Source: an uncultured Chloroflexales bacterium (GTDB taxonomy: Bacteria; Chloroflexota; Chloroflexia; Chloroflexales; Chloroflexaceae). From it: a DNA stretch of 64,000 nucleotides. The notes under the pieces were generated by a model. The model saw only the letters and a program-made list of their open reading frames with translations, had not been told where the DNA came from and ran no database searches. The stretch is taken from contig CAKZSI010000008.1 in the NCBI GenBank assembly GCA_937918935.1, positions 1 to 64,000 of the forward strand, in the 5' to 3' direction. Each line of letters opens with the position of its first letter. Positions within the stretch are counted from its first letter, which is position 1. The position numbers and the translations under genes were made by a program. Below, piece after piece: positions 4,550 to 41,158 of this stretch.

Positions 4550-6490
4550 TCACGCTGCCAGTTCGGCCCACTGGTCGTACTTCGCTGCCAGCAGGGTTTC
4601 GAGTTCGGCGTATTGCGTGCCCAGGGCGGTGATCTGCTGCACGTCGCGGGCGGCGCTGGCCAGTTCCAGGTCAGCCTTGAGGCGGCCAAGTTCCTGTTCG
4701 AGCAGAGCCACTTCCGCTTCCAGCGCCGCCAGGCGCTTCTTGCGCAGGCGCTCCTGCGGCGCAGTCGGCTCGGGCGTCGCCACCGGGCGCACCGCGGCAG
4801 GAGATGGGGAAGGTGTCCGGGCCGCCTGCGCCTCGGACGGCGCCCCGGCGCTCCTGGCTGTAGCCGCTTCGCGGGCGGCAACGAAGTCGCTGTAGCCGCC
4901 GAGGTACTCGCGAATGCGCCCCTGTTCGACGTGCCAGATCTTGTCGGCCAGGGCGTCAATGAAGTAGCGGTCGTGGGAAACGAAGAGGATCGCGCCGGGA
5001 TACTCTTTGAGCACACCCTCGAGGGCCTCGCGGGCGCCGATATCCAGGTGATTGGTCGGCTCGTCGAGGATAAGCAGGTTACCCGGCAGCAATGTCAGTT
5101 GGGCCAGGGCGACGCGCGAACGTTCGCCGCCGCTGAGGTCGCCGATGCGCTTGAAGACATCGTCGCCGCTGAAGAGGAAGCGCCCCAGCAGGGTGCGGGC
5201 CGCCGCTTCGCCGAGGTTCGGGCTGGCACGCGTCAGTTCCTCCAGCACGGTCGCATTCCAGTTGAGCGCGTCGTGGCCCTGGGCGTAGTAGCCGATCTGC
5301 ACCTGATGCCCCAGGCGCGCCTGGCCCCGCAACGGGCGCACCTGGCCCAGAATGGTGCGTAGCAGGGTGGTCTTGCCGCTGCCGTTGGGACCAAGGAGCG
5401 CCACCCGCTCGCCGCGATGCACCTCAAGACCATCGGCCCGGAGCAGCACGCGCGGATCGGCCTCCTGGCGATTGCCGGGAAAGCCGACCACCAGGTCATC
5501 GAGCGCGAGCGCGAGGGCGCCACTGCGAAGCTGAGTGTCGAGGAAGAGGCGCAAGCGCGCCGGTTCGCGGGGTCGCTCGATGGCCTGCTCGCGCTTCAGC
5601 CGTTCGAGGCGCTTCTCACGGCCCTTCGCCTCGCGGGCGCGCTGGCCGGCCTTGTAGCGGCGGATGAACTCCTCGGTGCGGGCGATAAATTCCTGCTGGG
5701 CGCGAAACTCCTTTAGCCGCCGTTCCATCCGCTCGGCCTTGAGTTCCAGGTAGCGGTTATAGGGGGCCGGGTAGTCCTCCAGCTTGCCGAAGGCCACTTC
5801 CAGGGTGCGCCGGGTGACGCGATCGAGGAAGTAGCGGTCGTGGGAAGTCACGATCAACGTGCCATCCCAGGCGCGGAGGAAGTGTTCGAGCCACTCCAGG
5901 GCCTGCATGTCGAGATGGTTGGTCGGCTCATCGAGCAGCAGCAGGTCGGGGTCGGAGAGCAGCGCGGCGGCGAGGGCAGCGCGGGTCTTCTGGCCGCCGG
6001 AGAAGTGGGCCAGGCGCTGGTGGTACTGGCTCTCGTGGAACCCCAGGCCCTGCAGGGTGCGCTTGATGCGTGGCTCGACCTCATAGCCGCCCATATGCTC
6101 GAAGCGGGCGCTGAGTTCGCCGTAGCGTTCCATCGCCGCTTCCCAGCCCGGGGCGGCGGTGTCGGCAATCACCGGTTCTAGCGCCTGGATTTCCGCCTCC
6201 AGCTCCCGCAGGGCCGCCAGGGCACGCTCCATCTCCTGCCAGAGGGTGCGTTCGCCGCCGAAACGCACCTCCTGGGACAGATAGGCGATGCGGGCGCCAC
6301 GGGCGATGGCCACCTGACCTCCGTCGGGGCTTTCCAGGCCGGCAATGATCTTCAGCAGGGTGCTCTTACCGGCGCCATTCACACCGACCAGGGCGACCTT
6401 GTCGCCCCGGGCTACCTGGAAATTGAGGTTCTCGAAAATCAGTTCGGCGCCGTAATACCTGGTCAGGCCACCGACGCTCAACAGGGTCAT
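4550..6490 (-). CDS. ABC-F family ATPase
   Basis: The protein has 646 residues and two ABC domains with no membrane segments, the hallmark of ABC-F proteins acting on the ribosome. Domain 1 has Walker A GVNGAGKST and signature FSGGQKT. Domain 2 has GPNGSGKTT and LSGGERS. Both carry LLLDEPTNHLD-type Walker B motifs. A charged linker lies between them, and a Pro/Ala-rich stretch leads to a C-terminal coiled coil (Uup-type C-terminal domain, last ~80 residues). I prefer ATG 6490 (GGAG 8 bases upstream) over the in-frame ATG at 6505, which has no ribosome site. It may be a translation factor or resistance-type ABC-F; sequence alone cannot choose. Confidence 0.9.
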   Translation of the reverse strand: MTLLSVGGLTRYYGAELIFENLNFQVARGDKVALVGVNGAGKSTLLKIIAGLESPDGGQVAIARGARIAYLSQEVRFGGERTLWQEMERALAALRELEAEIQALEPVIADTAAPGWEAAMERYGELSARFEHMGGYEVEPRIKRTLQGLGFHESQYHQRLAHFSGGQKTRAALAAALLSDPDLLLLDEPTNHLDMQALEWLEHFLRAWDGTLIVTSHDRYFLDRVTRRTLEVAFGKLEDYPAPYNRYLELKAERMERRLKEFRAQQEFIARTEEFIRRYKAGQRAREAKGREKRLERLKREQAIERPREPARLRLFLDTQLRSGALALALDDLVVGFPGNRQEADPRVLLRADGLEVHRGERVALLGPNGSGKTTLLRTILGQVRPLRGQARLGHQVQIGYYAQGHDALNWNATVLEELTRASPNLGEAAARTLLGRFLFSGDDVFKRIGDLSGGERSRVALAQLTLLPGNLLILDEPTNHLDIGAREALEGVLKEYPGAILFVSHDRYFIDALADKIWHVEQGRIREYLGGYSDFVAAREAATARSAGAPSEAQAARTPSPSPAAVRPVATPEPTAPQERLRKKRLAALEAEVALLEQELGRLKADLELASAARDVQQITALGTQYAELETLLAAKYDQWAELAA

Positions 6491-6646: not shown

Positions 6647-7825
6647 TCAGGGGGAGGGAGAAGACCGCCTCAGTTCCCCGAGAATGCGCTCCAACTCGGC
6701 GCAGTGGCGTTGCCAGGAGTAGCGGGCCTCCACCCGCGCGCGCGCGGCTGCACCCATGGCCAGGGCGGCGTCGGGATCGGCCAGCACGCGAGCGATGGCC
6801 ACGGCCAGGGCCTCCACGTCGCCTTCGGGGAAGAGGGCGCCCTCGCGGCCCTCACGGATGACCGTGGTCAGCGGAGGGATGGCCGTGGTGACCACGGGCA
6901 GGCCGGCGGCCATGTACTCGTAGACCTTCAACGGCGACCAGAAGAAGCCGGCAGCGCGCAGGGCCGGGTGCGGCGCGGTGGTGAAGGGGGCCAGGCCCAC
7001 GTCGGCATCGGCAAGCAATTCGGGCACGCGGGCATAGGGCACGGCCCCGGTAAAGGTGAACCGCTCCGCGCGCGACGCGGCGAGGGCCACGGCAGCGTCC
7101 CGCTCCGGCCCGTCGCCGATGAGGGTGAAGCGCAGGTTATGGCCCCGTTCGATCAGGCGCAGCCCGGCGCGCACGACATCGGTGACGCCGTGCCAGGCGC
7201 GAAAAGAACCCAGAAAGACCACATTGGGCGGGCAGTGGATCTGGCGACGCTGCCGGGCTACGGAGGCGAAGCGCTCCACATCGGCGCCCCAGGGCAATTC
7301 GATGATCCGGTCGCGCGGGATGCCCGCCGGCACGGTAGTGTGCAGCGGCGTCACAATACGATTGGCGGCGCGGCACTGCCACTCGGCCCAGCGCCGCAGC
7401 GGGCCGCCCAGGGCATCGTCGAGGCGCCGCTTGAACACCACGGGCGGATCAACGATCAGGGCGTTGACTTCCAGGAGCGCGGGCACGCCAAGGCGCCGGG
7501 CGGCAAGGATACCGACCCCGGCGAAGTTGTAGTAGCGCTCCATGATTACGTCGGGGCGCAGAGCGCGCGCCAGGCGCAATACCGGCGCTGCGCCAAGCAG
7601 GCTCAGAGCCCTGGGCACATCCTGGTGGTGCAGGTAGATACCGTCGAGACGCGAGGAGACCGGGCGGGCGAAGGGCGCCAGGCCGCTCCAGCCTTCGCGC
7701 GACGCGGCCACGAGGTGCACCTCGTGCCCGCGACTGGCCAGGCCCCGCGCCACCTCGTAGGCGTGGGTACTGCCGCCGAGAGCCCCCGGCACCGGAATGC
7801 CGGCAGCGACGTAGAGGATCTTCAC
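6647..7825 (-). CDS. glycosyltransferase, GT4-like (GT-B fold)
   Basis: The protein has 392 residues. The N-terminal Rossmann half begins MKILYVAAGIPVPGALGGST, with the glycine-rich acceptor loop typical of GT4 enzymes. The C-terminal half has the donor-site region KVYEYMAAGLPVV and, earlier, FTLIGDGPERD. It should transfer a sugar from a nucleotide-sugar donor in the cytoplasm; donor and acceptor cannot be read from sequence. The start is GTG at 7825-7823, sharing four bases (GTGA) with the stop of the c-di-AMP receptor gene upstream. The two are therefore translationally coupled in one operon driven by the promoter at 8096-8124. Confidence 0.85.
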   Translation of the reverse strand: MKILYVAAGIPVPGALGGSTHAYEVARGLASRGHEVHLVAASREGWSGLAPFARPVSSRLDGIYLHHQDVPRALSLLGAAPVLRLARALRPDVIMERYYNFAGVGILAARRLGVPALLEVNALIVDPPVVFKRRLDDALGGPLRRWAEWQCRAANRIVTPLHTTVPAGIPRDRIIELPWGADVERFASVARQRRQIHCPPNVVFLGSFRAWHGVTDVVRAGLRLIERGHNLRFTLIGDGPERDAAVALAASRAERFTFTGAVPYARVPELLADADVGLAPFTTAPHPALRAAGFFWSPLKVYEYMAAGLPVVTTAIPPLTTVIREGREGALFPEGDVEALAVAIARVLADPDAALAMGAAARARVEARYSWQRHCAELERILGELRRSSPSP

Positions 7826-8064
7826 AGGCGCTCGTAGCGCTCCAGGTCCATGATAATCGCCAGGGTGCCAGGGGCGACGCCCTTGACCAGATCGCAGGCC
7901 TGATCGACCTGCTGATCCTCGACGCCGACGAGCAGGGTCGTATTGCCCCGGCGCAGAAAACCGCCGGTCGTCGCCAGGCGCGTGACCCGAAAGCCCTTCC
8001 CGACCAGGGTGTCCACGCTCACGTCGGCATAGGCATCGTCGGTGACAAACACAATCAGTTTCAT
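7822..8064 (-). CDS. cyclic-di-AMP receptor, DarA/PstA-like (DUF970), short form
   Basis: The protein has 80 residues starting MKLIVFVTDD. It carries the family signature TGGFLRRGNTTLLVGVED (about 34-51) that forms the nucleotide-binding loop of DarA/PstA proteins. Those are PII-like trimers of about 109 residues; this one is shorter in its second half, so the large loop of the family is probably missing. ATG 8064 is preceded by AGGG and by a strong promoter, which argues against the longer in-frame start. Its stop overlaps the glycosyltransferase start. By family knowledge it senses c-di-AMP; no enzymatic role is expected. Confidence 0.8.
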   Translation of the reverse strand: MKLIVFVTDDAYADVSVDTLVGKGFRVTRLATTGGFLRRGNTTLLVGVEDQQVDQACDLVKGVAPGTLAIIMDLERYERL

Positions 8065-8095
8065 GGCCCTACCCTGCGCGCGACACTCCGAAGGC

Positions 8096-8124
8096 ATTAT
8101 AGCCAGCGCCCAGCACGCCGTCAA
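8096..8124 (-). promoter_or_regulatory. promoter of the DarA-like/glycosyltransferase operon
   Basis: Minus strand: TTGACG (8124-8119), 17 bases, perfect TATAAT (8101-8096), with the ATG at 8064. This is one of the best promoter matches in the window. Confidence 0.7.
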
Positions 8125-8182
8125 CGGCGCGCGCAGGCCACGCCACGGCAAAGGACTGGGGAATGCTTCGGCCCTGCCTGCA

Positions 8183-9349
8183 TCACCCCCCCACCCCCAG
8201 GGCCGCCAGCATAATCAGGGTAAAATTGTACCCCCCGTGAACGATCGCCGCCACGCTGGTGCTGCTGCGCTGGCGCACCACCCCGCACACGACGCCTACC
8301 AGAAAGACGACCAGCAGGGCGTCCCAGTTGTATTGGAAGGCATGGAGGCTCATAAAGAAGAGGTTGGAGAGCAACAACCCCAGCCGTGGCTGCAACACGC
8401 CCCGCACGGCCAGTTCCTCCCCCAACCCGGCGGAGATGCCGATCACCACCGCGCCAGCCGGGTTCATGGCAAAGGCAAACAACTGGTCAAAGGCTTCCTC
8501 ATCGGTCACCGGCCAGCCCATCAACCCCCAGAGCCACTCGATGCCCGTGCCAATCACCTGCACGGCGCCAGCGAGGAGGAGGGCCAGACCCAACCCGAGC
8601 AATGCCTGGCGCAGCGTCGGGCGGGTCAACCCCAGACGCGCCAGCGCCCCGCGCAGATCGCGGGTAATACCGAAGCCAACGGCAAGAATGGCCGCCGGGA
8701 TCGTCCAGATCAGACTGTAGACCTGATCGCGCAGCAACCCCGCCGGGTCGCGCCCGCCAGCCTGAGCGGCCAGATCATCAACCAGGGTCAGGAACGGCGG
8801 CGCACCGAGCACCACCAGGGGCACAATGGCGATCAGCCCGATGGTGGCCACGGCGATCAGCGCGACGGTATGCACAAATGACGCCGGATTGATGGGCACG
8901 ATCCGCGCAACCAGGCGGCGCATACCGGGCAGGATGAACAGCGCGCCGATGGCGATACTGCCCGTGATACCCAGCACGACCAGCCCCAGGCGCGCCAGAT
9001 CGGCCGGCGCCAGCATCGGTAACGCCCCCGCACCGGGCGACAGGCCGCTGGTCAGCACGTTTAGCGACAGACCCAGGGCGATCAGACTGACCCCGCCGAT
9101 CATCAACATGAGCCAGAGCGCCGTGGCGACCCAGGCCCAGTTGGGGCGCTCGCCGCCGAGGTAGGCCAGCACCGCAAGCATGGCGAAGGGCAGCGTGTTG
9201 ACGCTGGCGGCCATGATCTGACCGGGCTCCCCGCCAATGGCGCTGCCCACGGCGAAGAGCAGCACAAATAGCCCCAGGCCCACACCGAAGGGCAACAGAT
9301 TGATCGCTTGCCGCTGCTCCTCAGCGCGTACCCCGCCAGGCTCGGCCAT
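8183..9349 (-). CDS. CPBP-family intramembrane metalloprotease
   Basis: The protein has 388 residues and is strongly hydrophobic, with about ten predicted membrane helices. The CPBP (CAAX protease/bacteriocin-processing) motifs appear in order near the C-terminus: EELAVRG (EExxxR), FFMSLHAF (FxxxH) and HGGYNF (HxxxN/D). These residues bind the metal inside the membrane. I start at ATG 9349 (MAEPGGVR); the in-frame upstream extension reads through a palindromic repeat (9404-9431) and lacks membrane or family features. Substrate unknown. Its neighbour on the right is the receiver-EAL gene, also on the minus strand but 220 bases away. Confidence 0.85.
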   Translation of the reverse strand: MAEPGGVRAEEQRQAINLLPFGVGLGLFVLLFAVGSAIGGEPGQIMAASVNTLPFAMLAVLAYLGGERPNWAWVATALWLMLMIGGVSLIALGLSLNVLTSGLSPGAGALPMLAPADLARLGLVVLGITGSIAIGALFILPGMRRLVARIVPINPASFVHTVALIAVATIGLIAIVPLVVLGAPPFLTLVDDLAAQAGGRDPAGLLRDQVYSLIWTIPAAILAVGFGITRDLRGALARLGLTRPTLRQALLGLGLALLLAGAVQVIGTGIEWLWGLMGWPVTDEEAFDQLFAFAMNPAGAVVIGISAGLGEELAVRGVLQPRLGLLLSNLFFMSLHAFQYNWDALLVVFLVGVVCGVVRQRSSTSVAAIVHGGYNFTLIMLAALGVGG

Positions 9350-30129: not shown

Positions 30130-32652
30130 CTACACGAAGAGGTCTCGGTGGAGTAAGAGTGACTCGAACCGGGACGCGGGCAGCGGGTGGCTAAAAAGAA
30201 AGCCCTGAAACAGATCGCAACCGGCATCGAGCAGGTAGCGATATTGCCATTCGGTTTCGATGCCTTCAGCGACGAGTTGCAGGTTCAGCGACCGCCCCAG
30301 GGTAATGATGGCCTGGACGATGCCCCGGCTGCCGTTGTGCGCCGCAGCATCAAGCCGGGCCACAAAGGTGCGGTCCACTTTCAGGGTAGTGAGGGGTAGG
30401 CGTTGCAGATAGGCCAGCGACGAATAGCCCGTACCGAAATCATCCAGGGAGAGGGCGAGGCCTAACGCACGCAGTTCGTGTAACTGGCGCAGGAGGGGTT
30501 CCAGGTCGCTAAGCAGGGCGCTCTCGGTCAGTTCCAGTTCGAACAGCGCCGGGTCAAGGCCGCTGCTGGCGATAGTGGCGGCAACCATAGACAGGAAGGA
30601 AGGCTGGGCGAACTGGATCGCGGAGATGTTGACCGCTACAGGAACGAGCGGCAGACCCTTCTGTCGCCATTCCTGGAGCTGGCGGCTGACCTCCTGCAGG
30701 CACCATTCGCCGATAGGCACAATCAGCCCCAGTTCTTCGGCCAGCGGAATGAAGTGACCCGGCAGCGTCGTGCCCTGCGTGGGATGTTGCCAGCGGATCA
30801 GCGCCTCCGCCCCGCTCAGCCGTCCGGCACGATCCACCTTGGGCTGGTAGAACAGCACAAACTCATTGCGTTCAAGCGCTCGTCGCAGATGGCTTTCCAG
30901 TTGCAGGCGCTCAAGAGCCATCCGATTGATGCCGGGTTCGAAGAATTGAAAGCTGTTGCGCAGGGTAGTTTTGGCGCGGTACATGGCCACATCGGCGTTA
31001 CGTTGCAGCGTATTGGCATCTTCGCCATCATCGGGGAAGATGCTGGCGCCGATGCTGGCGCTGAGAAACAGTTCCTGGCCATTGACCAGAAACGGCATAC
31101 GCAGCATCTCGTGCAACCGGTTGGCAACCTGTGCGACCTGGCTGGTCTCGACGATCTCAGGCAGAACCAGCATAAACTCATCCCCACCCCGGCGCGCCAG
31201 GGTGTCGCTGGCGCGCAGGCAGCCCTCAAAGCGGCGCGCGAGTTGTACAAGGAGTACATCACCAACGTTGTGCCCCAGAGTGTCGTTGATCTGTTTGAAG
31301 CGGTCCAGATCAATGAACAGCACCGCCACCTTGTGGCGGGTGCGTCGGGCGGCTTCGAGCGCCTGACGGAGGCGATCCTCGAAGAGTACACGGTTAGGCA
31401 GCCGCGTCAGGGGATCGTAGTAGGCCTGAAAGGCGATCTGATGCAGACGCTCGTGCTGCTCAACCGCAATGCTGATCAACTGGTTCACCATTTCGAAGAA
31501 GCGCAGATCATCACTATCGGGGCGGGCCATGGCCCGCCGGCAAATGGTCAACGTACCCGGCGGGACATTAGGATTAAGTTGTAGCATGCAGCGCCAGCAA
31601 ACGAGTACTGCTGGCGTTGCCGTGCTCTCAGGGATGGCAAAGGTCGTGATCTCCGGGTTGGCGTCCGAGGCGGGAGGATGAGTTTGCACTGCGGTGCGAG
31701 TGAAGGCCTCGAGGGTCGCAACAAATTCCGTAGTCAGATCGGCATCGTGGGCATCGAAGAAGAGATCCGTGTGTCGCAGGGCCAGGGCCACGTAGGCGGC
31801 ATCCCTGTAACGTTCGCGGGTCAGAGCGACCAGTTCGGTTGCCACGACGCTGAGGGGTTGCTGGCGGGCTACCAGTTCCAGCACCCGCCGTCGCGTCATG
31901 TCGAAAGCTTCGGCGCGCTTGCGTTCGGTAATACACTCCAGGGAGACGACCGCCCGGCCCCATGGCGTATCCCCACAATGGCTGACGTGCATCGCGAACC
32001 ACTGCTGATGGCCCCCCTCTTCGACCGCATATTCAGTGGCGAAGCGCGTGCACTGCCCTTGAAGCACCTTACGAAGGCCCGCGGTGACCGCGGGGGCCTC
32101 AGGCATGGCCGAGACGGCCCAGATCGCCAGGTAATTCCCACCGATGCCAGCGCGGGGTTCGGGAGAATCATCACCGTTCAACGCTGCGCGCCAGTTCTGA
32201 TTGACCGCCACGATGACACCCTTCTGGTCGAGGATGGCGATCCGGGCCGACAGCCCATCGAGCGCCGTGCGGAGCAGGCGCTGCGAGTCGATTAGCAGTT
32301 GCTCGGCGCGCTTGCGGGCGGTAATATCGTGGAGCGCCGCGAGAAAGGCCGGGCATCCCTGCCAGAGGATCGACTCCACGCGCAACTCGGCGAAGACCAT
32401 CGTGCCGTCTGGGCGCAGCAATTCGATGTCACAGACCCGATTGGTCACGAGCGGCAGGCCAAATGGCTGGTTGATCAAGCGCTCGGGAGGGCGTCCGAAG
32501 AGACGAGCGGCTGCCGGATTGGCGAACTGCACAATCCCCCGGTCATCAACAATCAGTGCGGCATCAACGTTGTGCGTAGCGATCAGACGCAACAGATCGC
32601 CGGGGAGGGCGGTCTCGGCATTCCGGGCAAGGGGCAGGAATTCATCGCACAT
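30130..32652 (-). CDS. PAS-PAS-GAF-GGDEF-EAL c-di-GMP enzyme
   Basis: The protein has 840 residues from ATG 32652 (GGTGGA seven bases upstream; an ATG at 32667 is possible). Domains: PAS (about 20-115), PAS (about 125-245), a GAF-like segment (about 255-405), GGDEF (about 415-570) and EAL (about 590-835). The cyclase motif RRGGDEF is intact (GGDEF at 489-493) and has the inhibitory RxxD exactly five residues before it (481-484). The phosphodiesterase motifs are intact too (EAL 616-618, ELTES, DDFGTGYSS, AEGIE). It could make or break c-di-GMP. It lies 48 bases downstream of kaiC on the same strand and is probably co-transcribed, making it a candidate output of the Kai module. Confidence 0.92.
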   Translation of the reverse strand: MCDEFLPLARNAETALPGDLLRLIATHNVDAALIVDDRGIVQFANPAAARLFGRPPERLINQPFGLPLVTNRVCDIELLRPDGTMVFAELRVESILWQGCPAFLAALHDITARKRAEQLLIDSQRLLRTALDGLSARIAILDQKGVIVAVNQNWRAALNGDDSPEPRAGIGGNYLAIWAVSAMPEAPAVTAGLRKVLQGQCTRFATEYAVEEGGHQQWFAMHVSHCGDTPWGRAVVSLECITERKRAEAFDMTRRRVLELVARQQPLSVVATELVALTRERYRDAAYVALALRHTDLFFDAHDADLTTEFVATLEAFTRTAVQTHPPASDANPEITTFAIPESTATPAVLVCWRCMLQLNPNVPPGTLTICRRAMARPDSDDLRFFEMVNQLISIAVEQHERLHQIAFQAYYDPLTRLPNRVLFEDRLRQALEAARRTRHKVAVLFIDLDRFKQINDTLGHNVGDVLLVQLARRFEGCLRASDTLARRGGDEFMLVLPEIVETSQVAQVANRLHEMLRMPFLVNGQELFLSASIGASIFPDDGEDANTLQRNADVAMYRAKTTLRNSFQFFEPGINRMALERLQLESHLRRALERNEFVLFYQPKVDRAGRLSGAEALIRWQHPTQGTTLPGHFIPLAEELGLIVPIGEWCLQEVSRQLQEWRQKGLPLVPVAVNISAIQFAQPSFLSMVAATIASSGLDPALFELELTESALLSDLEPLLRQLHELRALGLALSLDDFGTGYSSLAYLQRLPLTTLKVDRTFVARLDAAAHNGSRGIVQAIITLGRSLNLQLVAEGIETEWQYRYLLDAGCDLFQGFLFSHPLPASRFESLLLHRDLFV

Positions 32653-32700
32653 AGGAGAATCCACCATGCGCTCGGAGCGTCTGAGGCATCCCGATTGCGA

Positions 32701-34233
32701 TTATTCGGCTGAAGGCGCGGTCTCATCATCCCGGAACATGGCCCCGAGCCGCTCCAGTTCACTGGGTGAGACGTGGGTAAACTGTCCGGACAGAATGCCC
32801 GAGATATTGCGAAACGGACGCCCGATATGCATCCCTTTGCTGTCAATGGAAAACTCGCGGATCTCCTTGTCGTGGATCGAGCCGCGCATTTTCAGCACCG
32901 TCAGCCCACGCCGCATCTCACCAAAGAGTTCAACGTAACGCAGCAGGATGATCGAGTCGGTGATCGTCGAGATATGGGCCTCGGTAATTGACGAGCCGCC
33001 GAGCAGGGTAGAGGTGGTGGACGTATACAGGCCGACAATCTCCTGGTGCTTGATAAACGACGTCAAGCTAATCACAAACTCGCGAAAGCTGCGCAAGGTC
33101 GAAACGCGCTCCAGGGCCGAGAGACTGTCTACAGCAATGCGTTGCGGTTTGAAACGATCGATCTCGGACTGCATGGCAATCAGTTGGTCCTCCAGGCTGG
33201 TCACTTCGGGATAATTGGCCACCACCCGGAGCAGGCCATCCTTCTCCATCTGCTCGAAATCAATCCCCCAGCCCTCGGCATTGCGGAACAACTGGTCGCG
33301 GCTCTCTTCGAAGGCGAAGAGCAGGGCGCGTTCGCCGTGCTGCGCACCAGCAGCCATAAAGGTGGTGGACATGAGCGTTTTGCCCGTCCCCGTTGCACCA
33401 CTAACCAGAATAATTGAGTCGCGAAAAAAGCCGCCGCCGCACATCCGGTCGAGTTCGGCATTGCCCGAGGTGATGCGCAGATTCGAGGAGCGCTGCTTCA
33501 ACTCCATTGCCGAGAGGGGGATCATGACGATCCCGCGGCCAGGGATCACCGTAAAGGGGAAACTGCCCTTCTGGTGAGCAGTGCCGCGGAACTTCAGGAT
33601 CTCGACGGTGCGGCGGCGCTTTTCCTCTTCCATGACGTTGCGGAGAATAACCACGTCATCGGTGACGAACTCCTCGATCCCAAAGCGGGCAATTTCGCCA
33701 TTCTCGTGGGCGCGCTCGGCAGTGATCACCCCCGTCACCCCCAGCCGTTTAAGGGTGGAAACGATGCGGAACAGTTCGTCGCGAACCAGACGGGTATCGC
33801 CGAGCCGGGCGAAGATCGCGCCGAGCGAATCCATCGAGATACGTGAGGCTTTCACCCGGCGCACCGCGTGTTCGATCCGCGCCAGCAGCGCGCCAAGATC
33901 ATAGGAGCCCATTACCAGCAGTTCCTGGTCGGGTTGCGGCGAGGCATCTACGAAGGCCCAGAGACCTTCAGCTTCCCATCTGGCAATGTCCCAGCCGAAG
34001 CCACGCATATTGCGCCGCAGATCATCGGGTGACTCCTCAAAGGTGACAAAGACCACGCCTTCGCCCCGCTGCGCCCCTGCGGCGAGAAACTGAGCGGCAA
34101 AAACGGTTTTGGCGCTCCCGGCGGTACCGGAGACCAGTGTCGTTCGACCGCGCGGCAACCCCCCATTGGCAATATGATCGAATCCGGGGATACCGGTCGG
34201 AAGACGTTCAATCGCATCATGCTTTACGTTCAA
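32701..34233 (-). CDS. kaiC: KaiC-family double-domain ATPase/kinase
   Basis: The protein has 510 residues and two RecA-like domains. CI: P-loop GTAGSAKT (36-43, Ala where Gly is usual, as in some non-cyanobacterial KaiC) and catalytic pair E66-E67. CII: P-loop GATGTGKT (279-286), E309-E310 and the phospho-loop TEAHISTITD, so the S431/T432 equivalents are Ser422/Thr423 and the T426 equivalent is Thr417. A C-terminal tail (about 475-510, FRNISGILSGQFTHVSPSE) corresponds to the A-loop and KaiA-binding tail of the clock protein. The start is TTG 34233 with AAGGAG seven bases upstream. All residues for autophosphorylation are present. Confidence 0.94.
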   Translation of the reverse strand: MNVKHDAIERLPTGIPGFDHIANGGLPRGRTTLVSGTAGSAKTVFAAQFLAAGAQRGEGVVFVTFEESPDDLRRNMRGFGWDIARWEAEGLWAFVDASPQPDQELLVMGSYDLGALLARIEHAVRRVKASRISMDSLGAIFARLGDTRLVRDELFRIVSTLKRLGVTGVITAERAHENGEIARFGIEEFVTDDVVILRNVMEEEKRRRTVEILKFRGTAHQKGSFPFTVIPGRGIVMIPLSAMELKQRSSNLRITSGNAELDRMCGGGFFRDSIILVSGATGTGKTLMSTTFMAAGAQHGERALLFAFEESRDQLFRNAEGWGIDFEQMEKDGLLRVVANYPEVTSLEDQLIAMQSEIDRFKPQRIAVDSLSALERVSTLRSFREFVISLTSFIKHQEIVGLYTSTTSTLLGGSSITEAHISTITDSIILLRYVELFGEMRRGLTVLKMRGSIHDKEIREFSIDSKGMHIGRPFRNISGILSGQFTHVSPSELERLGAMFRDDETAPSAE

Positions 34234-34292
34234 CGCTCTTCTCCTTGAATGACCCCTTGAGCTGCGGCACTGAGGCGAGCACCATGGCCCCT

Positions 34293-34574
34293 CTATGCCG
34301 GAGGCAGATTCAGGGCATTCAGCACCTCAGAAGGGTCGGCGGCAAGATCGCCAATCACCCGCCGCTGCGGGAGCGGCTGCTCCTTAATCAGGGTCGGAGT
34401 GGCGAGGATTTTATGGATTTCAGCCTGCATCGGATCTGCCAGAACATCGATAACCGAGAAATCGCACTCGTAAGCGGCAAGTTCGTGCTCGCAGAGCCGG
34501 CGCAGCAGGGCAATTGCCCGCTCTGACCGCGGCGTGCGGCCGGCGATATACAAATGAAGAACAATCCTGGTCAC
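34293..34574 (-). CDS. kaiB: KaiB-family protein
   Basis: The protein has 93 residues from GTG 34574 (TTG 34616 is an alternative with no ribosome site). It has the thioredoxin-like KaiB pattern: VLHLYIAGRTPRSERAIALL, then VIDVLADP, and ILATPTLIKEQPLPQRRVIG with the cis-proline region. Length and ending (GDLAADPSEVLNALNL) match KaiB without the acidic tail of the cyanobacterial form. KaiB binds the CI ring of KaiC in its fold-switched state. It is 59 bases upstream of kaiC and clearly in the same operon. Confidence 0.93.
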   Translation of the reverse strand: MTRIVLHLYIAGRTPRSERAIALLRRLCEHELAAYECDFSVIDVLADPMQAEIHKILATPTLIKEQPLPQRRVIGDLAADPSEVLNALNLPPA

Positions 34575-34744
34575 TGAGATGCTCGCAGTGCCCCGACTAC
34601 GGGACCTAAGAGCCAATCCGACGAACCAAAATGCCGATGCGGGTGCATTCCTCTACGGGAAAGTTTCGGAGAGCGTAGCTCTCCCAGGAATCATTCGCGC
34701 CCGGCGCCGCACCCGATAGGCCCGGCCTTTCGCACTATTATATT

Positions 34745-35938
34745 TCAACGTTGCGGTTCGAGTGCAACGATGCCCAGGGAACGCGATCGGTAATATGCCG
34801 CAAGATGGCCCATCAGTTCCAGCACGAGCAGACGGCCTTCTTCGAGATAGGCCTGCTGGCGGATGATGGGCGCTTCGGCGCTGACGGCGCGGATCGCAGC
34901 CAGATGAATCTCCACCACGTCACGCGGACTGGCGGCCTCAGCGCCGAGACGCTCGCCAAGCTCACGTAGGGAAACCGAAGGGAGTTGTTCGTCGAATGGG
35001 CGCCGCTTCAGGGCCTCATCAACGAGGCTGATGTAGACGTTGACCGCCTCGCGAAAGGCTTCCGGGTTACGCCGGCGCAGGGGCTGGCTGGCTTCAGCGA
35101 GGATCTGGCCGCTCGGCGGACGCGAGATCCGCTCCACGTCACGCAATTCCCGCTCCATGGCCTGGAGGCGCTGGCGCAACTCCTCTGCCTCGGCGGCAGC
35201 ACGCGCCGTGCGTCGCTGTTCGGTAATGTCGGTATGGGCCACCACCAGACCGCGCTGGGCGCCCTGCAACGGCAGCACGCGCAGCAAGAACCAGCGCTCC
35301 TCGGTGGGGCTGTGGCAGGGGTACTCCAGTTCGTAGAGGGGCAATTCCCCGCGCAGCACCGCCTGCATCCCGGCCAGAACCTTTCCCGCTTCGACGACGT
35401 TCTGATCCCGGGCGCCCTCGCATACCTGGAAGTAGTTGGTTCCCACCCCGGTGGCCCGCAGGCCCGGGTCGCCATTGGTGCGCGCGAATTCGCGCCAGGC
35501 GTCATTGACGGCGATGATCGTCCCGTGTTCGTCGAGCACGGCAATATGGACGGTCAACGAGTTGAGGATGGCCCAGTTGAATGCCTCGGCGTGCCGCAGG
35601 GCCTCCTGGGCGCGGCGGTGCTCGGTAATGTCGCGCAGGGAGATCAGGTGGGCCGGCACTCCGTCCCACTCCGTGGCGACCACACGCATCTCGGCCACGT
35701 GATGGTCGCCCTGGGGGTGCAAGACGTCAATTTCGGCCCGATCGCCCGAAAGTAGCGGGAAGCCGAACAATTCACCGAGCAGTGCGTCGGCAGGACGGGC
35801 GAGGAGTTGTTCGGCGGCGGGGTTGAGGAAGCGCACACGCCCCTCGGCATCGACCACGATGATGCCATCGGCGTTTTCGGCGATAATCTGGCGCAATCGT
35901 CGGTCGTCGGCCACAGGCTGATGCTCAAGTGGCTGCAT
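34745..35938 (-). CDS. PAS-PAS protein with KaiA/RsbU-N-like C-terminal helical domain
   Basis: The protein has 397 residues; AGGAG lies nine bases before ATG 35938. PAS 1 (about 10-108, LFGFPLLSGDRAEIDVLHP), PAS 2 (about 118-240, VHIAVLDEHGTIIAVNDAW) and a coiled coil (about 243-272) are followed by a helical domain (about 290-390). The last part, SPRDVVEIHLAAI ... EEGRLLVLELMGHLAAYYRS, follows the pattern of the KaiA C-terminal domain (VxEIHxxLx ... RLxLIDxxxHLxxxYR) and of the related RsbU N-terminal domain. There is no kinase, GGDEF or phosphatase domain. It is the first gene of the kai cluster, so a sensory KaiA-like activator is plausible. The fold assignment is from pattern memory, not a search. 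Confidence 0.7.
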   Translation of the reverse strand: MQPLEHQPVADDRRLRQIIAENADGIIVVDAEGRVRFLNPAAEQLLARPADALLGELFGFPLLSGDRAEIDVLHPQGDHHVAEMRVVATEWDGVPAHLISLRDITEHRRAQEALRHAEAFNWAILNSLTVHIAVLDEHGTIIAVNDAWREFARTNGDPGLRATGVGTNYFQVCEGARDQNVVEAGKVLAGMQAVLRGELPLYELEYPCHSPTEERWFLLRVLPLQGAQRGLVVAHTDITEQRRTARAAAEAEELRQRLQAMERELRDVERISRPPSGQILAEASQPLRRRNPEAFREAVNVYISLVDEALKRRPFDEQLPSVSLRELGERLGAEAASPRDVVEIHLAAIRAVSAEAPIIRQQAYLEEGRLLVLELMGHLAAYYRSRSLGIVALEPQR

Positions 35939-35993: not shown

Positions 35994-36022
35994 ATGATTG
36001 CCATGTCCCGCACGCATGTCAA
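35994..36022 (-). promoter_or_regulatory. possible promoter of the kai cluster
   Basis: Minus strand: perfect TTGACA (36022-36017), 17 bases, AATCAT (35999-35994), a weak -10. The ATG is at 35938. Confidence 0.4.
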
Positions 36023-36160: not shown

Positions 36161-37318
36161 CTACCGGCCCTTGACCACGGTCCAGAGATCGGTGAACACA
36201 GCGGTTTGCTCATTGCGGACGGCCCACTCCAGGCGCTGACGCACCTCGTCGTCGGGAGCGAAGCCTTCGGCATACAGCGCCTGCAGGTCCTCCGACAGCA
36301 AGGGCAGCGCGTCCTGGTTTGGCGTCAGGTAGCCGGTCCACTCGGCATTCCGGGCCGCCACTTCGGGGTCGAGCAGAAAGTTGATGAACACGTGAGCGGT
36401 GTAGCTGCCAGGCGAATTGGCCACAACCACCAGGTTGTCCATCCAGATCATGCCGCCTTCTTCAGGGATCACGAAGCGAATATCGGGGTTGCCCGCGAAC
36501 TCGCCCTCCAGACCATTGCGCGCCTGCAGGGCCGAGCCGCTCCAGGCGTGGGCTATGACGTACTCCTCCGAGGCCAGTTTGCGGTTGACATCGGCGCTAT
36601 TGTAGGCCGCCAGGTAGGGCTTCTGGGCGATCAGCAACTCCTCGACCTGTCGCAAAATGGCCGGGTCGGTCTCGTTGAGCGAGTGGCCCAGGTAGCGCAG
36701 GGCAGCGCCGGGGGTCTCCCGTTCATCGTCGAGCATGCTTAATTTCCCCCGGTAGGCCGCAATCGCGCTGGTGTCAAAGACGGCCGACCAGGTGTCGATC
36801 CCTTCAGGAAAAGATTTGACGTTGTACGCGATGCCGGTAATGCCATAAAAATAGGGTGCTGAGATGGCATTGTCGGGGTCGAAGGGCTGGTTGAGCAGAT
36901 CGGGGTCGAGGTGTACCAGGTTGGGCAGCAGGTTCTTGTCGAGGGAGGCGGCAAGCTTCTCGGCAGCCATAATCGTGACCGCGTAGTCCGAGGGCACGAC
37001 CAGGTCGTACCCCGAGTTGCCCGCGCGCAGTTTGGCGATCATGTCTTCATTCGAGTCGTAGGTGTCAACAATCACCCGCACCCCGTATTCGGCCTCGAAC
37101 TGCGCCAGCAATTCCGGATTAATGTAATCGGACCAGTTGTAGAAGTAGAGTTCTCTGGAAAGTCTGTTGCGGTCCACGCCCCCCGCCGGCATATCGGTGG
37201 TCTGCGGGGCGCCGCCTCCGCCGTATTCGTTGCCGGGGCTGGCCGTGCCGCCGCCACACGCCGCGAGGAGCACCAGGGTCAGGGCGAGCGCAAGGCCGAT
37301 CAGACTGCGGTTGTCCAT
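36161..37318 (-). CDS. potD: polyamine ABC transporter substrate-binding lipoprotein
   Basis: The protein has 385 residues from ATG 37318 with AGGAGG nine bases upstream. The signal peptide has a lipobox LLAAC. The mature part has the PotD/PotF-type phrases LYFYNWSDYINPELLAQFEAE, YDLVVPSDYAVTIMA, YFYGITGIAYNVK and WMDNLVVVANSPG. It binds spermidine/putrescine-type ligands outside the membrane and delivers them to the PotBC channel. It is the last gene of potABCD, set apart by 286 bases that contain a weak palindrome (about 37440-37475). Confidence 0.92.
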   Translation of the reverse strand: MDNRSLIGLALALTLVLLAACGGGTASPGNEYGGGGAPQTTDMPAGGVDRNRLSRELYFYNWSDYINPELLAQFEAEYGVRVIVDTYDSNEDMIAKLRAGNSGYDLVVPSDYAVTIMAAEKLAASLDKNLLPNLVHLDPDLLNQPFDPDNAISAPYFYGITGIAYNVKSFPEGIDTWSAVFDTSAIAAYRGKLSMLDDERETPGAALRYLGHSLNETDPAILRQVEELLIAQKPYLAAYNSADVNRKLASEEYVIAHAWSGSALQARNGLEGEFAGNPDIRFVIPEEGGMIWMDNLVVVANSPGSYTAHVFINFLLDPEVAARNAEWTGYLTPNQDALPLLSEDLQALYAEGFAPDDEVRQRLEWAVRNEQTAVFTDLWTVVKGR

Positions 37319-37604
37319 CAAGTTGTTCCTCCTGGCGTTTCAGCAACGCTCCATGGATGTTCCCATATTGTGCCGTCCGACCCCTTTCCCGACTCCTCAC
37401 AGATGCAGGGTTTTTCGAGGGAGAGGGGGGAGTTGGGTCCATGTGGGGCAAGCGCCTTTCCCCACGCCCCTGCCGATCCAGTGCACTTCCAGGCGACCCG
37501 TTGGGGATCAGCGTGACGCCAATACGCCCAGATGCGACGCGCGCAGGCCGCAATCGGCAATCTACCATCGCACTGGCGCGACTCTCCGAGTTGCACCGGG
37601 GAAG

Positions 37605-38474
37605 TCACTGTCTCCGTTGCACCGACTGCGAAAGGACCACCAGGGTAATCGAAAGCGCCAGCATGAGGGTGGAGATGGCGTTGATTTCGGGTGTCACGGC
37701 GCGACGCACCTTATTGTACACCTCGACCGGCAGCAGCGAGGTGCCCGGCCCCGAGAGGAACAGGCTGATAATGAAGTCATCAAGTGACAGGGTGAAGGCC
37801 AGCAAGGCCCCGCCGATGATGCCGGGAAGGATGAGCGGAAAGGTCACCCGCCAGAAGATATTCCAACTGTTGGCCCCCAGATCGGCGGCGGCCTCTTCCA
37901 GGCGCCGGTCGAAGTTCTTGAGGCTGGTGCGCACCACCACGACCACGAATGAGACACTGAAGGCGATATGCCCGATAATCACTGTGGTCAGACTGCGACG
38001 CAGCGTCTCGCCGGTGAGCAGACGGATCAGGTCAAAGGCCAGCGCCGAGAAGGCCAGCAGCGCCACGGCCATCACGATCTCTGGAATAACGATCGGAAGG
38101 TAGATCAATGTATCTACGCTATTTCGCCCACGAAAGCGGTAACGCTCCAGCGCCATTGCCAGCAACGTGCCGAGGACGGTCGCGACGATGGTGGAGACCA
38201 GCGCCACGTACAGCGTGTTCACCGTCGCGCCCATCAGGCGTTCATTGGCGAAGAGGCGCGTGTACCAGTCCAGGGTGAAGCCGGTCCAGCGCACGCCAAA
38301 CTGGTCACGGGTGAAGGAGAAGAGCACCAGAATAGCGATCGGAAGGTAGAGGAAAAGGTAAATGAGCACCGCGCAGGCCATGAGGACCAGGCCGCCCCAG
38401 GTCAGGCGACCCTGTTCGAGAGCCGGGCGGGCTGCCCGGCGTGGCTGCGTGGCGGTCGAGGTGGCTTCGATCAT
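37605..38474 (-). CDS. potC: polyamine ABC transporter permease PotC
   Basis: The protein has 289 residues and six membrane helices. The binding-protein-dependent permease loop is EEAAADLGANSWNIFWRVTFPLILPGI, which contacts the ATPase. The ATG at 38474 shares four bases (ATGA) with the potB stop. Function by family: one half of the inner membrane channel for polyamines. The phrase LSLDDFIISLFLSGPG is typical of PotC. Confidence 0.93.
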   Translation of the reverse strand: MIEATSTATQPRRAARPALEQGRLTWGGLVLMACAVLIYLFLYLPIAILVLFSFTRDQFGVRWTGFTLDWYTRLFANERLMGATVNTLYVALVSTIVATVLGTLLAMALERYRFRGRNSVDTLIYLPIVIPEIVMAVALLAFSALAFDLIRLLTGETLRRSLTTVIIGHIAFSVSFVVVVVRTSLKNFDRRLEEAAADLGANSWNIFWRVTFPLILPGIIGGALLAFTLSLDDFIISLFLSGPGTSLLPVEVYNKVRRAVTPEINAISTLMLALSITLVVLSQSVQRRQ

Positions 38475-39346
38475 CGGTCTTCCTCCGTGGTGGTGCGGAA
38501 GTAGATCAGGATGAGCGCGAGCAGCACCAGCATCATGGCCATGGCCATGGCCGAGCCGAGGGGCCAGTTAGGCGGGTTGGAGCGCAGGAAGAGCCGCTGG
38601 ATCAGGTTGCCCAGGTAATCAACTTTGGCCCCACCAAGCAGTTCGCTCACCACGAACTGGCCGATGGTGGGGATGAAGACCAGCACCGAGCCGGCGGCGA
38701 CCCCCGGCATCGTCATTGGCAGCATGACGCGCCAGAACGCCCGGCGCTTGCTGGCCCCGAGGTCAGCGGCGGCTTCCATCAGGGTGAAGTCGAAGCGATC
38801 GAGCGCCGCGTAGATCGGCAGCACCATAAAGGGCAATTCGCCGTAGACCAGACCGAGCAACGTCGCACCCTCGGTGTTGAGCAGGGTCAGCGGGGGCAGA
38901 CCGAGGCTGCGCAGGGCGCTGTTGATCAGACCATTGTTGGCCAGAATGATCTGCCAGGCGTAGATGCGCACCAGAAAGTTCGTCCAGAATGGTATCAACA
39001 CCAGGAAGAGCAGCACCGTGCGCCAGCGGGGCGGCTGACGCACGATGAAGAGCGCCAGGGGATAGCCGAGCACCAGACAGATCACCGTCGTGAGGACGCT
39101 GATCCAGATGGAACGCAGATAGGCATTGAAGTAGATCGATCGCGTGAACAGGTCAACGTAATTGCCGAGCGTGAATTGCCAGACGATATTGCCCCGTGGC
39201 CCGTTGGTCATGAAACTGTAGACCAGAATAATCACCAGGGGCAGGGCAAAGAAGAGAATGAGCCAGAGCAGGCCCGGCGTCAGCAGGGCGGCCAGCGTCC
39301 GCCGCTCTCGTCGCTGCCGCTCACGCTCCAGAGCATTGAGGGTCAT
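38471..39346 (-). CDS. potB: polyamine ABC transporter permease PotB
   Basis: The protein has 291 residues from ATG 39346 (MTLNALERERQRRERR), followed at once by the first helix (LTPGLLWLILFFALPLVIIL). Six helices and the EAADLGASKRRAFWRVMLPMTMPG coupling loop are visible. A far longer in-frame extension runs through the potA coding region in another frame and is not real. It lies ten bases after potA and overlaps potC, so all are co-translated. Confidence 0.92.
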   Translation of the reverse strand: MTLNALERERQRRERRTLAALLTPGLLWLILFFALPLVIILVYSFMTNGPRGNIVWQFTLGNYVDLFTRSIYFNAYLRSIWISVLTTVICLVLGYPLALFIVRQPPRWRTVLLFLVLIPFWTNFLVRIYAWQIILANNGLINSALRSLGLPPLTLLNTEGATLLGLVYGELPFMVLPIYAALDRFDFTLMEAAADLGASKRRAFWRVMLPMTMPGVAAGSVLVFIPTIGQFVVSELLGGAKVDYLGNLIQRLFLRSNPPNWPLGSAMAMAMMLVLLALILIYFRTTTEEDR

Positions 39347-39356
39347 CGGCAGCCTC

Positions 39357-40460
39357 CTACTCGGTAAGTACGAGGGCGTTATCGGGTGGACAGACCAGCA
39401 CGGCCGGCTCGCCGGGCTGCCAGTAGGCGTCCCGGTCGAGGGTGCTGAGCGTGTTCTGTTCCCAGACGTCAAAGGTGCGCTGATCATTGAGGCGCACGGT
39501 AATGCGCGTGTCGCTGCCGATGTAACTGACCAGTTCGACCCGTGCGGGTATCGCGAAGGCGTGCCCGGCGCGGGCGTCGCCGGGGGCGAGCAGAAGGGCC
39601 TTTTCGGGGCGGATGGAGAGCACCGCCGGCTCCCCGACCCGCACTGGTCGCGGGGTGAGACCGCGCAGGCGCAGGCCATCGGGCGTCTCGATCGTGGCGG
39701 CGTTGGCGCCGTTTTCGATCACTTTCCCGGCAATAAAGTTGGTCTCGCCAATAAAATCGGCCACGAAGCGGCAGGTAGGGCGCTCGTAGATCTCAGTGGG
39801 GGAGCCGATCTGCAGAACCTTGCCCTGACTCATCACGGCGATGCGATCGGACATGGTCAGGGCCTCTTCCTGATCGTGGGTAACGAAGACGAAGGTGATT
39901 CCAACGCGCCGTTGCAGACTTTTCAGCTCGATCTGCAACTCTTTGCGCAGTTTCTGATCCAGCGCGCCGAGCGGCTCGTCGAGGAGCAGGACCTCAGGCT
40001 GGTTGATCAGTGCACGCGCCAGGGCGACCCGCTGCTGCTGACCGCCCGACAACTGCCGGGGACGCCGATCAGCGAAGCCGCTCAGCCGCACCTGTTCCAG
40101 GGCTTCCCGCACCCGCGCGGCAATCTCGTCTTTGGGGCGGCGCTGCATCTCAAGGCCAAAGGCCACATTCTGCGCGACCGTCAGGTGCGGGAAGAGGGCG
40201 TATGACTGGAACACCGTATTCACCGGCCGCCGATGCGGGGGGATGGTCGCCATCTCGCGACCGTGGATCACGATCGAGCCGCTGCTCGGGTATTCGAAGC
40301 CCGCAATCATGCGCAGCGTTGTAGTTTTGCCACAGCCGCTCGGCCCGAGCAGAGAGAAAAACTCGCCGTCGCGGATCTCAAGCGAAACATGGTCCACAGC
40401 GGCGATATCGCCGAAACGTTTGACAACGTTGCGCAGTTCGACCGCGTTCGTGGTGCTCAA
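39357..40460 (-). CDS. potA: polyamine ABC transporter ATPase PotA
   Basis: The protein has 367 residues. Walker [10 protein letters not shown], signature [15 protein letters not shown] and Walker [12 protein letters not shown] are present, followed by a TOBE-type C-terminal domain (about 285-365). I chose TTG 40460 because GGAGG is ten bases upstream and family similarity starts there ([17 protein letters not shown]). ATG 40493 (MRLFCYGGQ) is possible but adds residues unlike PotA. It powers PotBC and is the first gene of the operon. Confidence 0.92.
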
Positions 40461-40493
40461 CCCTGGCTGTCCTCCATAGCAGAACAGTCGCAT

Positions 40494-41158
40494 CACCGAT
40501 GCGACAGGCGTGCTACACTGCGGGAGCGCGTTCCGGGGAACTTTTTTGAGTATACCATGGTTTTCTGGCCCTTTGCGGCTACGTAAGACCGGCGGGTGCG
40601 GCCTATATGCTTGCACATGCAGATCCCCGCCACGCCCGGCGCCACCTCCGGGCCCGCAGGCCGTAGGGGCGGCCACGCCGATGAGGTTCACCCGATGGCG
40701 TGCGCGAACCACTCCACAGCGTGGATGTCGTCACGGGCGCGCAGGGGGACACGACGGTTGCCGGCAGGGGCACAGCTCCCCATTGCCCGGCAGCTAAAGC
40801 CACAGGCTAACAACCCGCGAAGCCGGCGGCCCGGGCCGGGGCTTCAGCAGGCTTCGCACCCGGCCTCCGCAACACTGGCCGGCGCTTTCGGGCGCCCGAC
40901 GGGCCGGCGGGCCGCAGCACGTGCAAGACGTTTCGTCACACCCGGGGATCAGGAAACTCTCTTCCCCGCTCTCCCGCGTGCGGCAGAGCGGGAGAGGGAT
41001 GAGAAAGGTCGGCGGGCTGGAATGCCGCCCCCCTCCTTACGCTCTCGAATAATCCTGGTTGTGCGCATACGCCTCGGGGCGTATGCACGCCACTAAAACC
41101 CTGCCCCTGCGAGGGCGGGAAAACCCGGTCACCCCATTTTCACGATAACGGACAGGTA
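40494..41158. other. long GC-rich intergenic region, content unknown
   Basis: This gap lies between the divergent potA and deoC genes. It includes several strong hairpins: GGCCCGCAGGCC about 40657, and two mutually exclusive stems about 40963-40997 built from CTCTCCCGC, CCGCTCT and their complements. Nothing here reads as a family protein in any frame. It could hold a decayed mobile element, a structured RNA, or both. Confidence 0.3.

Follow-up and report, generated by a model that had tools for sequence, protein, structure and literature searches.

Do anoxygenic phototrophs, outside the cyanobacteria, possess true clocks, and where did the input domain of KaiA come from? A cluster of kai genes in an uncultured Chloroflexales bacterium bears on both questions. 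The cluster occupies positions 30,130 to 35,938 of a 64,000-nucleotide stretch of contig CAKZSI010000008.1, which we call the window, and an earlier note had suggested that it could be a complete KaiA-KaiB-KaiC timer in a Chloroflexota-like genome, with PAS domains in place of the KaiA pseudo-receiver and cyclic diguanosine monophosphate (c-di-GMP) as output. Having computed gene order, predicted fold, conservation, co-occurrence and the series of sensor architectures directly, we consider it likely that this anoxygenic phototroph has a timer of the KaiA3B3C3 kind, whose KaiA carries two PAS sensors and no receiver; in short, a KaiA-type activator turned one-component sensor.

The window lies in contig C8; the assembly, 4.6 Mb in all, has two reaction-centre genes (PF00124), on contig C63, and its Chloroflexota-like character was supported by computation. 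The open reading frame (ORF) list and Pfam confirmed the four minus-strand genes, which run consecutively in the order PAS-PAS-helical protein, kaiB, kaiC and PAS-PAS-GGDEF-EAL, with intergenic gaps in that order of 128, 59 and 33 bp:

34745..35938, minus strand: kaiA-like gene, PAS-PAS-linker helix-KaiA-type C-terminal domain, 397 aa (ORF, Pfam, AlphaFold2 model)
35627..35899, minus strand: PAS domain 1, about residues 14-104 (Pfam PAS/PAS_8)
35210..35566, minus strand: PAS domain 2, residues 125-243 (Pfam PAS_4, 4e-19)
35123..35224, minus strand: long linker helix, residues 239-272, from PAS2 towards the helical domain (AlphaFold2 model)
34763..35080, minus strand: KaiA-type C-terminal four-helix domain, residues 287-392 (predicted model, fold searches, hhalign)
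34293..34616, minus strand: kaiB, 107 aa by this start (PF07689, 2e-20; PDB KaiB matches)
32701..34233, minus strand: kaiC, double-domain, 510 aa (PF06745 twice, 9e-114; NCBIfam)
32704..32814, minus strand: KaiC A-loop and C-terminal tail, residues 474-510 (conserved motif in 46 linked KaiC)
30130..32667, minus strand: GGDEF-EAL enzyme with PAS-PAS and a stretch without Pfam match, 845 aa (Pfam, motifs)

Where KaiA has its pseudo-receiver, the kaiA-like protein has two PAS domains, and with the receiver the phospho-acceptor Asp is absent as well. Pfam gave no match to Response_reg up to E 1 in this protein, and found in it no phosphatase or STAS partner domain. A VIA search with the full-length model placed PAS structures on top (Z 11-13), PAS domains filling the list, and both methods support the proposal that PAS domains form the front end instead of a (pseudo)receiver.

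The C-terminal domain, the last ~105 residues, was aligned from relatives (alignments A2 and A4) and then folded, giving a model with four main helices (predicted local distance difference test 89.9, predicted template-modelling score 0.82). Foldseek ranked KaiA C-terminal chains first to fifth (probability 1.00, TM 0.60-0.64), and KaiA entries made up eight of the nine best VIA rows (5n8y, 1q6a, 1r8j, 4g86, 1r5q, 1v2z, 5c5e and 5jwr) at Z 9.9-10.8, values near 10 lying below the VIA caution level for helical bundles; identity to KaiA in the VIA alignments was 13-19%. By hhalign the domain aligned to residues 166-280 of S. elongatus KaiA over 106 columns (E 1.9e-4), the score with A4 (24.7) exceeded those of all 400 shuffles (best 21.9), and the A4 offset of 172-173 residues agrees with the values of 170-174 at the ends of the structural alignments to S. 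elongatus KaiA, for which first and last residues only were given. The domain is also 44-51% identical to six linked receiver-type C-terminal domains in alignment A1 (L034, L035, L036, L037, L040 and L041). The KaiA/RsbU-N pattern that the earlier note had seen here escapes the profile search, with no hmmscan match to KaiA (PF07688) or to RsbU_N (PF08673) in the window protein up to E 1, but the predicted fold (Foldseek, VIA) upholds it. We read the domain as a remote KaiA homologue, good in predicted fold and weak in sequence. Searches of the PDB by phmmer or profile with the protein or the domain returned only PAS structures or chance helical matches, and a plasmid search gave one chance match for KaiA (E 0.2) and none for the domain. 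Its nearest named relatives come from Chloroflexaceae and Chloroflexi metagenome-assembled genomes (MAGs), Oscillochloris, Candidatus Viridilinea, Candidatus Chloroploca and Chloroflexus, in a contig scan with a single peptide pattern, which perhaps omitted own-genome records and in which absence (e.g. of cyanobacteria) is uninformative.

The partner proteins were compared across 46 clusters, hand-chosen from the loci fetched for the KaiC tree and the neighbour counts; same-genome repeats, truncated or contig-edge loci and loci without the domain found were left out (these include L004, L006, L008, L013, L015, L059, L072, L085, L090, L093, L110 and L123). KaiB is present in all 46, in L109 via tblastn only; the window KaiB scores 72.7 bits against PF07689 (cut-off 27) and falls below the cut-offs of both NCBIfam KaiB equivalogs, and several homologues of ~93 aa start about 14 residues later than the window ORF. 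The window KaiC is above cut-off for two NCBIfam equivalogs, NF006799 and TIGR02655, and its best PDB matches are 8zn5, 8zn6 and 8zn7, for which we found no relevant paper. The residues that had been picked out in it are present as described: S422/T423 (HIST at 420), T417 (SIT at 415), the catalytic Glu pairs E66/E67 and E309/E310, and the C-terminal tail. That tail, which we take to correspond to the KaiA-binding segment of S. elongatus KaiC, keeps a motif across the 46 linked KaiC proteins, with E492 and R495 each in 45 and F500 in all. As a separate observation, the CI P-loop of the window KaiC (residues 36-43, window 34105-34128) reads GTAGSAKT, with Ala replacing the usual Walker A Gly; Ala stands there in 40 of the 46 and Gly in 6, and the CII loop is normal.

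The domain and KaiC occur together. Among 61 genomes, the window's own included, a family profile found the domain in 35, exactly the 35 whose KaiC is at least 70% identical to the window's, and two more have a KaiC (57% and 34%; E 1e-60) without the domain (Fisher p 8e-18, a value that, like all our counts, takes related genomes as independent and near-copy rows such as L063/L074 and L103/L109 as they stand). The domain gene adjoins kaiB and/or kaiC in 34 of the 35, the copy in G004 being a fragment at a contig edge; in the remaining carrier, G021, the contig ends at the domain gene and kaiC lies on another contig. Full-length PAS-PAS-helical matches (45-100% identity) occur in 27 of the 61, own included, 23 of them PAS-PAS alone, three receiver-PAS-PAS and one with another N-terminal part, and the linked copy is receiver-type in 8/35 (G017, G027, G042, which we take to be Roseiflexus sp. 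RS-1, G048, G051, G054, G056 and G060). Some of the 61 genomes have a second KaiC at 34-39% identity. G107 has a weak domain match only (E 7.8e-4) and no KaiC. The Kai gene order exceeds chance and recurs in many genomes, so that the conservation of neighbours on which the earlier note had made its proposal depend was borne out.

The reaction-centre family Photo_RC was found in 45 of the 61 genomes, and all 35 domain carriers are among these. A general dependence of this kai set on phototrophy is nevertheless contradicted by four genomes outside the order (G190, G236, G335 and G316), which have the domain and KaiC without Photo_RC, type I reaction centres lying outside the search. One genome, G006, without a Photo_RC match, has a KaiC (57%), a KaiB and a 268-aa receiver protein (L166:1621-2427) whose C-terminus reaches just 3.8 bits with the family model; by eye it resembles canonical KaiA, and a third KaiA type is possible.

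The same helical domain was found behind several kinds of sensor, assigned by BLAST, the queries being fragments of proteins from the window and from Roseiflexaceae, and by Pfam on a sample. The receiver form stands upstream of kaiB in Roseiflexaceae, in two members of the window's family (the group holding Chloroflexus, Oscillochloris and others) and in MAGs of Anaerolineales, Planctomycetota, Verrucomicrobia, Rhodospirillales, Sneathiellales and Magnetocorallium; the receivers of L073, L122 and L164 have no Asp at the usual place and look degenerate. Receiver-PAS-PAS proteins occur in G010, G019 and G021, the PAS-PAS form in Chloroflexus, Oscillochloris, Chloroploca, Viridilinea, the window's genus and two Anaerolineae-type MAGs, and a single-PAS form in one Acidobacteria and one Gemmatimonadaceae MAG. 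A GAF-like N-terminus of L162 was an impression by eye that no Pfam match upheld. In L128 (Defluviicoccus, 5498-6405) the receiver and the KaiA-type domain that precede kaiB-kaiC are encoded by two ORFs, out of frame with each other and separated by 5 bp, which may be a split gene or a frameshift.

The kind of sensor is largely matched by the neighbours. In 14 of 17 receiver clusters a histidine kinase is encoded on the same strand, at most 1.5 kb upstream or 0.6 kb downstream; for PAS-PAS clusters belonging to the window's family the count is 0 of 20. Kinases were sought with two queries at 1e-6, and seven of those found were confirmed with Pfam; little flanking room is left in L066 (813 bp upstream) and in L073, L036 and L127 (711, 111 and 315 bp downstream). 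In the KaiC tree of the 46 clusters, rooted at midpoint, the family PAS-PAS clusters form one group (99/96), joined then by x-PAS-PAS (100/98) and receiver-PAS-PAS (98/90), and the receiver clusters fall outside all PAS-PAS-bearing groups; the tree of the C-terminal domain (116 columns) is poorly resolved and did not recover this order.

The fourth gene sets the family apart in another way, since a GGDEF/EAL gene follows kaiC in 19 of its 20 PAS-PAS clusters as against 0 of the 17 receiver clusters. Pfam finds PAS-PAS, GGDEF (4e-52) and EAL (8e-69) in the window protein, and the motifs GGDEF, RxxD (RASD), EAL, DDFGTG, NIS and ELTE are all there, which suggests that both activities are possible. 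The GAF domain that had been placed between PAS2 and GGDEF was not confirmed, window 31438-31920 matching no Pfam family up to E 5, whereas the remainder of the architecture and the link of a c-di-GMP enzyme to the kai genes were supported. By BLAST the PAS pairs of enzyme and activator are 36-37% identical, and that of the enzyme is the best own-genome match to the activator PAS region after the activator itself; given this relatedness, the two proteins may sense related cues.

By analogy with KaiA and KaiA3 we infer a timing mechanism in which the KaiA-type domain would form a dimer, take hold of the KaiC tail and promote autophosphorylation at S422/T423, and in which KaiB would counteract the activator. 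The PAS pair, acting through the long helix 239-272, would gate activation by bound ligand or redox state and so constitute a one-component input; receiver-type relatives usually have a histidine kinase nearby, and the PAS form would sense directly instead. The GGDEF-EAL enzyme would probably change c-di-GMP, as output or as a parallel branch.

Besides the modest VIA Z values and the relatedness of the genomes counted, a number of results weigh against this account. The Foldseek E values for the KaiA chains are only 0.08-0.2; the hhalign probability is just 22%, and 16% with A2 (E 0.0017); hmmsearch put the KaiA C-terminus first among 2002 sequences, yet at E 0.022, with full-length KaiA third and outscored by one shuffle; a PDB search with the family profile did not retrieve KaiA; and PF07688 is above cut-off in none of the 61 genomes, compared with one of 14 control genomes, five of which match at all, S. 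elongatus among them. The KaiC region 470-500 is overall more variable (mean entropy 1.06) than CI (0.83) or CII (0.62). G126 (Chloroflexota) has an unlinked PAS-PAS-KaiA-type protein (415 aa, L165:1625-2872) and no KaiC match at E 1e-60, in an assembly listed at 6% contamination. The PAS-PAS cluster L062 has no GGDEF-EAL gene, and in the receiver clusters L092 (Anaerolineales) and L121 (Magnetocorallium) a GGDEF gene immediately precedes the kaiA-like gene (L092:4183-5478, L121:2531-5473), so that c-di-GMP genes beside kai genes occur beyond the window's family and a GGDEF gene cannot be read as peculiar to PAS-PAS clusters. Both PAS-PAS clusters of Anaerolineae type carry a kinase gene downstream of kaiC, and in the KaiC tree the pair comes next (99/85), outside the receiver-PAS-PAS and family group, which speaks against a single origin for all PAS forms and means that the receiver was lost more than once or that the locus moved. 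The stressosome RsbR domain 3zta, moreover, ties with KaiA in VIA at Z 10.3, and paralogues L048 and L051 have sub-threshold RsbU_N matches inside their C-terminal domains (E 0.064 and 0.073). Given that the KaiA C-terminus and RsbU-N share a common fold (Koebler et al., PMC11372060, accessible in part), the helical domain might be an RsbU-N/RsbR-like, stressosome-type partner binder that regulates KaiC or another ATPase in a switch and is not a clock-driving KaiA. We think this improbable: Foldseek puts KaiA first, the domain precedes kaiB-kaiC whether its sensor is a receiver, PAS or a mixture of the two, a phosphatase domain is lacking, and KaiC is present in every one of the 35 carriers.

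Granting the domain its KaiA function, it was still not unreasonable to ask what the module does with it. PAS pairs are typical redox or ligand sensors, and a related pair sits in the GGDEF-EAL enzyme, as would suit a KaiABC stress/redox or hourglass module, damped and reset daily, that follows day/night or oxic/anoxic state. KaiB and KaiC homologues elsewhere act in stress response or as hourglass timers (PMC11372060, in part), and hot-spring mats have oxic days and anoxic nights (PMC11788075, in part). The Rhodobacter hourglass runs without KaiA according to the accessible part of PMC11372060, whereas the window has a KaiA-type gene; we hold such a module, which is compatible with KaiA function, to be quite possible though short of an even chance. 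It is rather unlikely, in our judgement, that the GGDEF-EAL gene is a mere operon passenger with the kai output elsewhere, an idea likewise compatible with the other readings: in none of the 17 receiver clusters does such a gene follow kaiC, nor does it in L062 or in clusters of the receiver-PAS-PAS and x-PAS-PAS kinds, the room after kaiC in L073 being only 711 bp, but it is kept in nearly all PAS-PAS clusters of the family, as counted above, and its product shares the PAS pair with the activator. More tentatively, KaiA might be a modular clock adaptor, a KaiC-facing helical domain that accepts exchangeable sensors (different kinds of receiver, receiver-PAS-PAS, PAS-PAS or single PAS, besides an N-terminus without assignment), in which the Chloroflexus family swapped phosphorelay for direct PAS sensing stepwise, by stages that present-day lineages would still show, to arrive at a self-contained circadian oscillator of anoxygenic phototrophs reporting via c-di-GMP. 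Our preferred reading remains the KaiA3B3C3-kind timer with a PAS-sensing activator.

At least one further copy of the domain occurs in 15 of the 35 genomes, the window's own included, and all six orphan copies that were run through Pfam carry a receiver. The own-genome copy (L033:5069-6046, contig C83) has a receiver with the usual Asp and a KaiA-type domain, is unlinked to kaiBC and lies 1.3 kb from a receiver-GGDEF gene (7324-9228); it is possibly a second activator for the same KaiC. Among cultured strains, for which this work names a KaiA candidate in Chloroflexus, we take G031 to be C. aurantiacus J-10-fl and G269 to be C. aggregans DSM 9485. G269 has two domain genes: one, unlinked, lies beside a receiver-HD-GYP gene and aligns with receiver-type orphans, which means that c-di-GMP enzymes flank orphan copies too, and the other encodes PAS-PAS-KaiA upstream of kaiB-kaiC-GGDEF-EAL. 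Synteny of kaiA3B3C3 outside cyanobacteria has been reported with Chloroflexus aggregans excepted (Koebler et al., PMC11372060, in part). With an orphan and a kaiBC-linked PAS-PAS-KaiA in one genome, the orthologue returned by reciprocal BLAST would most likely be the orphan, which probably explains the exception: judging from sequence, the kaiBC genes are accompanied by a KaiA gene of their own.

Upstream of the kaiA-like gene the window offers one further feature, in a scanned region where sigma-70-like matches number 5 against a shuffle mean of 2.6:

35994..36022, minus strand: weak sigma-70-like promoter match, ~55 bp upstream of the kaiA-like gene (10/12 positions)

Directly upstream of the kaiA-like gene there is also an ABC transporter set (binding protein, two permeases and ATPase; window 36161-40712, minus strand), which we read as polyamine type; of the family's 20 PAS-PAS clusters, 8 keep a binding-protein gene upstream of the kaiA-like gene.

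The natural series of receiver, receiver-PAS-PAS and PAS-PAS, in which input domains are exchanged and the KaiC-facing domain is kept, suggests that the inputs of the clock behave like replaceable modules, and the core claim is open to test with three small recombinant proteins and ATP. In the literature on KaiA3, Chloroflexi Kai and diel or circadian behaviour of Chloroflexus, as far as accessible and with subscription literature mostly outside its scope, we found no description of a PAS-KaiA; the main texts of PMC11372060 and PMC8113500 hold no word starting with PAS, and that of a hot-spring diel study (PMC11788075), consulted for kai transcripts, has no word starting with kai.

How, then, does the cluster stand beside the systems already described? 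The view taken in the earlier note that classical KaiA is largely cyanobacterial needs correction, in that KaiA-like proteins outside cyanobacteria have been published: KaiA3, a receiver joined to a KaiA-like domain, is recorded from Roseiflexus, Chloroflexus, Chloroherpeton, Rhodospirillum and Bradyrhizobium, and Synechocystis KaiA3B3C3 oscillates in vitro (PMC11372060, in part). KaiA also occurs in a few other bacteria, and the N-terminal domains of cyanobacterial KaiA vary (OmpR, REC, AtoC, PHA02030) (Dvornyk and Mei, PMC8113500, in part). With KaiA3 recorded from Roseiflexus and Chloroflexus, the mere presence of an A-B-C set in Chloroflexota is no novelty.

The Rhodobacter-type KaiBC hourglass (KaiC2) has KaiB and a double-domain KaiC in common with the window, but KaiC2 has an extended C-terminus (PMC11372060, in part), whereas the window KaiC, 36.9% identical to the plasmid KaiC of Cereibacter sphaeroides, has a short tail and a KaiA-type partner. 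With the N-terminal domains of RsbU (PF08673) and RsbR the window domain shares a helical fold class, and it differs from those proteins in having neither a phosphatase nor a STAS domain and in its kaiBC context. With canonical KaiA (S. elongatus, 1r8j, 5c5e) it shares the predicted C-terminal fold, a weak collinear sequence match and the place upstream of kaiB; canonical KaiA has a pseudo-receiver and a PF07688 match, and the window protein has neither. Closest is KaiA3B3C3, which the cluster resembles in its KaiA-like C-terminal domain and its kaiA-kaiB-kaiC order, a likeness measured on receiver-type relatives and not on Synechocystis KaiA3 itself. KaiA3 has a NarL-type receiver at its N-terminus, in contrast to PAS-PAS without receiver or phospho-acceptor Asp in the window protein, and unlike the KaiA3 type the window cluster has no adjoining histidine kinase and has a GGDEF-EAL gene after kaiC. 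A KaiABC set with a KaiA3-like activator is thus already known; the new part is the sensor swap, a PAS-PAS KaiA.

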